Shown: positions 19,581 to 20,775 of the stretch, piece by piece
Layout of the letters: the number at the start of each line of letters is the position of its first letter
How positions within the stretch are numbered: the stretch's first letter is position 1
Position numbers and translations under genes: made by a program
Notes under the pieces: model-generated
What the model was told of the DNA's origin: nothing
The model's database searches: none
The model's input: only the letters and a program-made list of their open reading frames with translations
Virus record (IMG/VR): IMGVR_UViG_3300013104_000715
Span: 1-47,656 of that record
Source of the DNA: a virus
Reading direction: 5' to 3' (one strand)
Length of the DNA: 47,656 nt

Positions 19581-19939
19581 GTGAATATCGAATAGAGCTT
19601 CCATGGCCGCCCGGTAATAACCACCTCTTCTCAGTATTCCGAGGGCGAAAGATAAAGAGCAAGAAGGGAAGGGAATACACAGCAGCAGTAATCAAGCAGA
19701 TCACCGAAGCAAATCAGCAGTACAACCTCGCCGGCAAGCTCAAAGTAAAAATCTCAGCATACCCGCCAACACGCGCTCGTCGTGACCTAGACAACCTATT
19801 CAAAGCGCCACTCGACTCACTCACACAGGCCTGCGTAATTGCAGATGACAGCCTGATTGATGACGTGCGCATGGTCCGCTGCGAAGTGGTGAAGGGCGGT
19901 AGGTTGGAAATATTAATTACAGAATTGGAGGTTTCGTGA
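19577..19939 (+). CDS. rusA: RusA Holliday-junction resolvase
   Basis: This 120-residue endonuclease cleaves four-way junctions made during replication and recombination. Family motifs are visible: LPWPPGNNHLF at the start, then RARRDLDNLFKAPLDSL with the acidic residues that bind metal, and ADDSLIDDVRM. It is near the usual length of 120 residues. It ends overlapping the methyltransferase start. Confidence 0.96.
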   Translation: MSEYRIELPWPPGNNHLFSVFRGRKIKSKKGREYTAAVIKQITEANQQYNLAGKLKVKISAYPPTRARRDLDNLFKAPLDSLTQACVIADDSLIDDVRMVRCEVVKGGRLEILITELEVS

Positions 19940-20652
19940 ATGAGTTGGCTCTTTTCGCAGGCGCTGGCGGAGGAATACTCGGCGGCCACCTGCTCGGATG
20001 GAACACAGTATGCGCAGTTGAACGTGATGCCTACGCCGCACAAGTTTTGGCGCAACGACAAAACGATAGAATTCTCAAACCTTTCCCGATTTGGTCTGAC
20101 GTGTGCAGTTTTGACGGAAAGCCATGGAGAGGAGTTGTTGATGTCATTTCTGGCGGCTTCCCATGTCAAGACATTAGTTCGGCCGGTCGAGGAGCTGGGA
20201 TCGAGGGAGAGAAATCAGGGCTGTGGAGCGAGATGGCAAGAATCAGCGATGAAGTACGACCTCAATTCGTCTTCGTGGAAAACTCACCACTCCTTGTGGG
20301 AAGAGGGCTTGCCAGAGTCGTCGGTGACCTTGCCGAAATTGGGTTTGATTGTCGATGGAGTCGTGTGGCAGCAAAAGAATGTGGCGCGCCTCATAAGCGA
20401 GACCGTTTGTGGCTGGTCGGGAGAAATGTTCGCGACACCTCAAGCGAGGGATTACCGGTCTGGTTCTCTGGACAGGTGGAACGACCCGAGGAGGTCACGG
20501 AACCTGAACGACCAAATTGGTGGCCTTCTGAACCCGGAATTCGTCGAGTGGATGATGGGATGGCCCATCGGGTGGACAGAATTAAAGCCCTTGGCAATGG
20601 ACAAGTTCCAAGAGTGGCGGCAGCAGCATTCAGCATGCTTGGAAAAAAATAA
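19936..20652 (+). CDS. C5-type DNA cytosine methyltransferase
   Basis: This 238-residue protein has the ordered motifs of C5 methyltransferases: FAGAGGG (7-13, AdoMet site), GGFPCQDIS with nucleophile C77, FVENSP (113-118, usually ENV), RDRLW (155-159) and GNGQVPR (220-226). The target-recognition part between 160 and 205 is very short, typical of phage stand-alone enzymes. It starts with GTG, four bases from GGAGG. A second frame, 19940-20665, covers the entire gene. It may protect phage DNA from host restriction. Confidence 0.93.
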   Translation: MNELALFAGAGGGILGGHLLGWNTVCAVERDAYAAQVLAQRQNDRILKPFPIWSDVCSFDGKPWRGVVDVISGGFPCQDISSAGRGAGIEGEKSGLWSEMARISDEVRPQFVFVENSPLLVGRGLARVVGDLAEIGFDCRWSRVAAKECGAPHKRDRLWLVGRNVRDTSSEGLPVWFSGQVERPEEVTEPERPNWWPSEPGIRRVDDGMAHRVDRIKALGNGQVPRVAAAAFSMLGKK

Positions 20653-20665
20653 GGAGGCAGCATGA
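19940..20665 (+). CDS. Overlapping ORF in another frame of the methyltransferase gene
   Basis: This 241-codon frame is shifted +1 from the methyltransferase and covers its length. It begins MSWLFSQALAEEYSAATCSDG and contains SSSWKTHHSLWEEGLPES, LPKLGLIVDGVVW and FVEWMMGWPIGWTELKPL. From memory these resemble motifs of a phage protein family usually labelled hypothetical (SWKTxQ, WGMxxDG, WLMGWPIGWT). Its ATG is eight bases from GGAGG, better than the methyltransferase GTG, and its TGA overlaps the next ATG. No known function; dual coding is inferred. Confidence 0.6.
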   Translation: MSWLFSQALAEEYSAATCSDGTQYAQLNVMPTPHKFWRNDKTIEFSNLSRFGLTCAVLTESHGEELLMSFLAASHVKTLVRPVEELGSRERNQGCGARWQESAMKYDLNSSSWKTHHSLWEEGLPESSVTLPKLGLIVDGVVWQQKNVARLISETVCGWSGEMFATPQARDYRSGSLDRWNDPRRSRNLNDQIGGLLNPEFVEWMMGWPIGWTELKPLAMDKFQEWRQQHSACLEKNKEAA

Positions 20666-20775
20666 AGGAATTAATCACCAAACTCCTATTTCTATTCACT
20701 CCAATCAATCCTGAAATAGCGCCAGTTAACGGCATCCCGTCATGGGATACAAATCCTAGAAGGAGAAAGTCATGA
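20662..20775 (+). CDS. Small ORF between methyltransferase and Q
   Basis: This 37-residue ORF starts MKELITKLLFLFTPINPEI behind AAGGAGG. Both ends overlap neighbours by four bases (ATGA), which is good evidence for translation. The first half is hydrophobic and could sit in a membrane. No family is recognised. Confidence 0.55.
   Translation: MKELITKLLFLFTPINPEIAPVNGIPSWDTNPRRRKS

Follow-up and report, generated by a model that had tools for sequence, protein, structure and literature searches.

Split C5-cytosine DNA methyltransferases (MTases) are known in themselves, and two of them are the closest described counterparts of the phage locus analysed here. In M.EcoHK31I, the reading frame of the small subunit (beta) lies inside the gene of the large subunit (alpha) in a different frame and begins within it. 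As summarized in PMC3404938, M.EcoHK31I, a C5 MTase of the sequence YGGCCR (Lee, Kam & Shaw 1995), has motifs I-VIII and X in its large subunit and motif IX in its small subunit, while M.AquI alpha and beta represent another natural two-subunit C5 MTase. The split in M.AquI falls within the variable region, and both motif IX and motif X belong to its small subunit. Literature searches retrieved no report of the phage family described here. The locus described below very probably encodes the subunits of one heterodimeric split C5-cytosine MTase of the M.EcoHK31I type, both started from a single Shine-Dalgarno sequence.

The window, i.e. the whole stretch of 47,656 nucleotides that was analysed (IMG/VR record IMGVR_UViG_3300013104_000715), derives from a temperate lambdoid phage encoding an integrase, a cI-like repressor, an O-like protein, a DnaB-like helicase, RusA, Q, an endolysin, terminase and tail genes; the similarity of this phage to its nearest phages is limited to short stretches. 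Between rusA and Q, two frames of the plus strand occupy common DNA of about 720 bases: alpha (19936..20652; 238 amino acids, GTG start, frame 0), the catalytic subunit of a C5-cytosine DNA MTase, and beta (19940..20665; 241 amino acids, ATG start, frame +1), the proposed small subunit with a TRD-like segment and motif IX. The initial annotation had pointed out two long overlapping frames of 238 and 241 codons, and both are present. Its reading of the start and stop signals is likewise borne out by the sequence. A common Shine-Dalgarno sequence, GGAGG (19927..19931), precedes the GTG of alpha by 4 nt and the ATG of beta by 8 nt; the double start GTGAATG (19936..19942) packs the alpha start, the rusA stop TGA and the beta start into 7 bases; and the beta stop, 13 nt past the end of alpha, overlaps as ATGA the start of a 37-codon ORF (20662..20775), the stop of which overlaps in turn the Q antiterminator start. 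At positions 20650-20775 of the window, the beta tail GGAGGCAGCATGA comprises the last beta residues together with the Shine-Dalgarno sequence and the start of the 37-residue ORF leading into Q.

As far as motif layouts have been summarized, the locus is similar to M.EcoHK31I in that there are two polypeptides, the larger with motifs I-VIII and X and the smaller with motif IX, and in that the gene of the small subunit is read from that of the large one in a different frame. Unlike the M.EcoHK31I small subunit, which is shorter, phage beta starts only 4 nt after alpha, ends beyond it and has an extra N-terminal segment. The M.AquI arrangement, in which motifs IX and X are both in the small subunit, is not that of the phage locus, which keeps motif X in alpha; the tandem-split mycobacteriophage pairs among the loci read (L247, L249, L250 and L252) are closer to M.AquI than the nested locus is. 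In Paenibacillus phage Likha, genes 51/52 are both annotated as 'DNA cytosine methyltransferase' and are nested in +1, and gene 52 harbours the PTP element and LNPDWVECLMGFPIGWTD; unlike in the window, however, the Likha beta begins well inside alpha and is devoid of the MSWLFSQAL extension. Gp72 of mycobacteriophage Tweety has the same catalytic core and motif IX, but with all motifs in one chain.

Alpha is matched by PF00145 (2e-30) over residues 4-165 only and by phrog_363 (5e-62), and its AlphaFold model (pLDDT 57) was related by Foldseek to M.HaeIII and M.HhaI (E 6e-10). It contains motifs I-VIII (GGFPCQ, ENS and the RxR region among them) and X (ALGNGQVP), and displays the catalytic and AdoMet-binding features of PF00145; GGFPCQ (motif IV, 20152..20169), with the catalytic Cys77, is invariant in the alpha alignment A2, where ENS is conserved as well. 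Alpha has no normal target-recognition domain and shows a short variable region. The initial annotation had credited this frame with all key C5 motifs, which was one too many. Motif IX is absent from alpha, the PF00145 match stopping at residue 165 and the motif being read in +1, and the ten motifs of C5 MTases are thus not assembled in one chain. Among 102 representatives, ATG, GTG or TTG is found four bases ahead of the beta ATG in 90, and 12 have no usual start codon at this position; in L046, L047, L049, L069 and L076, several of them Acinetobacter-like, TTA stands in its place. Four genomic copies (L093, L106, L123 and L130) have isolated stops that interrupt alpha but leave beta open; the one in L123 takes the place of the Gln that follows the catalytic Cys (PC*).

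The missing motif is encoded by beta. Its C-terminal element LNPEFVEWMMGWPIGWT (20528..20578) was matched by profile and by hhalign to motif IX of single-chain phage C5 MTases (probability 96.7%, E 4.3e-10, 20 columns), the same enzymes to which the alpha profile aligns over motifs I-VIII with an E of 9e-50. Motif X of alpha (KALGNGQVP, 20584..20610, alignment A2) follows just past the beta element in the other frame. In hmmsearch, the single-chain element was collinear with residues 273-309 of M.HhaI, covering motifs IX-X (MGYP...GNSVV), the local segment being weak when taken alone. A motif IX profile built from beta sequences only detected the element in frame with the catalytic core at 29 loci, in +1 as a tandem gene at 18 and in +1 nested at 87. 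Upstream of it, ATPQARD of beta (20432..20452, alignment A1) is the 'PTP.A.D' element, which is also seen in single-chain and tandem relatives and in the former is located between motifs VIII and IX. The initial suggestion that the second protein may be a partner of the methyltransferase gains support from motif IX in +1. The family phrog_1008, labelled 'DNA methyltransferase', matches the beta of the window (9e-17) and 40 of 40 aligned members, and corresponds to beta as phrog_363 does to alpha; the PHROG labels are silent on these being overlapping frames of one locus. No match to beta was obtained in Pfam, NCBIfam or the PDB, searches of the latter giving chance hits only, and AlphaFold with 40 sequences yielded a pLDDT of 52 and a pTM of 0.24; alignment depth is probably what limits model quality, as also for alpha. 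Firm in-frame homology between beta and MTases extends over about 20 residues only.

Selection on the two proteins was assessed at conserved four-fold degenerate alpha codons, in which the third base is silent in alpha but serves beta as the second base of a codon. Column-wise entropy of this base replaced a crude count of differences by codon position, which, at the third position, gave nearly the same values for the dual set as for the control within the first 130 codons (0.55-0.58 vs 0.58-0.61). Third-base entropy was 1.06 bits for alpha residues 1-70, 1.68 for 71-115, 1.31 for 116-170 and 0.65 for 195-238, against a shuffled null of about 1.87 throughout; as the shuffles ignore kinship, the z-scores are not probabilities and are calibrated by the single-chain and tandem control. 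In this control, the matching N-terminal, non-overlapped part of related single-chain and tandem MTases, the entropy was 1.81 against a null of 1.90, and the constraint is therefore not intrinsic to the methyltransferase. The profile tracks beta, tight at its N-terminus, loose in its variable middle and tightest at motif IX. In the codon for alpha Leu4, the first base, silent in both frames, is free (46 T/54 C), whereas the third base is G in 91%, which keeps TGG for beta Trp3; this pattern points to constraint at the protein level rather than at the RNA level. The substitution analysis proposed in the initial annotation reveals constrained, not neutral, third bases and, judged from these patterns, both alpha and beta are under purifying selection.

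Selection on beta could also be expected if the protein were made but acted alone, perhaps in host takeover or as a modulator, its likeness to motif IX being a relic. The N-terminal extension, which is clade-specific, strongly constrained and without known homologues, is compatible with such a role. Nevertheless, alpha lacks the motif IX that C5 MTases have while beta retains it, third-base entropy reaches its minimum for the locus in precisely this region, the same element is in frame in single-chain relatives, and none of the loci read had a beta lacking an alpha partner; an independent beta is accordingly improbable.

Relatives of the pair occur in three layouts: one chain, as in Tweety 72 and Fitzgerald 4; a tandem split; and a nested +1 split, as in Likha 51/52. 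Tandem pairs have been annotated as two DNA methyltransferase genes in the phages Happiness (78/77), Euratis (33/34), Wildflower (6/5) and EricB (87/86). The homologues of the second frame looked for at the outset were thus recovered beyond passive overlap, the beta C-terminus being encoded by a gene of its own in tandem pairs and lying in frame with the rest of the chain in single-chain enzymes. In the alpha-core tree, the fully nested form, with beta starting 4 nt after alpha, constitutes one clade (SH-aLRT 100), and single, tandem and nested layouts switch several times, with 15 changes overall. Matches of the beta HMM in other nested or tandem relatives begin at position 61-70. The beta segment before about residue 65 (19940..20134) is limited to the fully nested clade, and was therefore probably added by overprinting motifs I-III of alpha. 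It is conceivable, though slightly short of an even chance, that the small subunit in this way acquired a new N-terminal domain, some 65 residues long, over the best-conserved stretch of its partner's gene, motifs I-III, and that the stoichiometry of the heterodimer, both subunits of which are encoded almost wholly by common DNA, is set by a single ribosome-binding site serving two starts 4 bases apart.

Some loci depart from these layouts. In L073 (2001-2893, on the same contig as L156), beta is truncated by a one-base frameshift that places motif IX DWVEWLMGWPIGWTDLKPLAMGKFQKW in frame with alpha; this could be a natural fusion or a sequencing error. In L074 (2001-2696), the middle of alpha is swapped for a divergent MTase segment, over which beta is unrelated yet open, as if a non-dual segment had been recombined in. 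Nitrosovibrio sp. Nv4 carries a second, very distant alpha/beta +1 pair (L228, 1352-2390) in addition to an ordinary pair (L119) in the same genome, and L329 (1200-2555) is the sole locus with the motif IX ORF in +2 relative to the catalytic core.

The layouts also bear on the question of whether beta is started at its own ATG, or whether a +1 ribosomal frameshift past motif VIII fuses the C-terminal half of beta to alpha. Beta of the tandem class has PTP, IX and X in +1 directly after motif VIII, and single-chain and tandem forms interconvert, L259 and L274 representing the two with an almost identical core; both observations would suit a frameshift. In the fully nested clade, on the other hand, beta is open and constrained from an ATG placed 8 nt from the Shine-Dalgarno sequence, and the frameshift product would be without motif X, which makes this mechanism very improbable here.

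The beta frame is open far beyond chance. When the window was shuffled synonymously with the alpha protein and codon usage fixed, the +1 frame was open in none of 300 shuffles (mean 3.9 stops). Across 46 non-redundant representatives (below 80% identity), not one of the 11,905 beta codons is a stop, against about 3.6 stops per locus expected from synonymous shuffling; in the same loci, +2 has 758 stops and the antisense frames have 214-417. Because the loci were initially picked by the beta protein, the search was redone with the alpha protein alone, and 80 of 80 loci encoded a beta relative in +1. Beta covers a median of 99% of alpha (minimum 75%; 102 representatives), its ATG is at the +4 offset in nearly all relatives, and a spacing of 8 nt to the Shine-Dalgarno sequence is the family mode (40 of 61 loci with a Shine-Dalgarno sequence of 5 nt or more). 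Besides phage records and viral contigs, the pair is carried by genomes or MAGs that are labelled Pseudomonas, Acinetobacter, Enterobacterales, Burkholderiales, Rhizobiales, Verrucomicrobiota, Omnitrophota and others. The overlapping alpha and beta frames are real, and the near-complete dual coding put forward in the initial annotation is upheld by the conserved frame, the start and stop geometry and the third bases.

Part of the resemblance between frames is nonetheless passive. Over motifs VI-VIII, ordinary C5 MTases read in +1 look like beta, also in cases where no beta gene exists; HMM matches of mid-beta to single-chain MTases were accordingly rejected as homologues, being the +1 shadow of these motifs. 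Gene 51 of Streptococcus phage P0095 (L251, 1160-1579; 'DNA methyltransferase', nested +1) is probably a mere shadow too, as its alpha has motif IX in frame. For the same reason, SSSWKT-like strings, which the initial annotation had linked to phage proteins annotated as hypothetical, are in part passive and are no evidence for one per se. What does speak for the second gene is how the starts are arranged, the third-base constraint and motif IX. That the +1 ORF is nothing but an unmade by-product of conserved methyltransferase codons is strongly disfavoured, despite this shadow, by a third-base constraint missing from the matching region of related MTases, by the free variation of sites silent in both frames, by the conserved start and Shine-Dalgarno geometry and by motif IX in beta.

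For the heterodimeric MTase, we infer that both frames are translated, that the products associate and that the enzyme has an anti-restriction role, which is the usual role of phage MTases. Ribosomes at the one GGAGG would start either at the GTG, giving alpha, or 4 bases further on at the ATG, giving beta. E. coli is known to initiate ambiguously where start codons are adjacent (PMC9841429). Alpha, with motifs I-VIII and X, would provide the catalytic domain binding AdoMet and cytosine, while beta would contribute its N-terminal extension, the TRD-like segment and, upon assembly with alpha, the part of the small domain with the motif IX that alpha lacks. The assembled enzyme would then methylate the phage DNA, probably against host restriction.

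What is new is not the split enzyme but the near-complete overlap, the overprinted N-terminal extension of beta and the breadth of spread. To our knowledge, long same-strand overlaps in which both proteins are measurably selected have rarely been documented in prokaryotic viruses. The overlap has a functional logic, one enzyme in two halves on one piece of DNA, and the fused, tandem and nested natural variants form a long comparable set. Beta is a missed gene next to many annotated 'DNA cytosine methyltransferases' and is absent from most genome annotations; the annotated alpha, if cloned alone, would probably yield an inactive enzyme.
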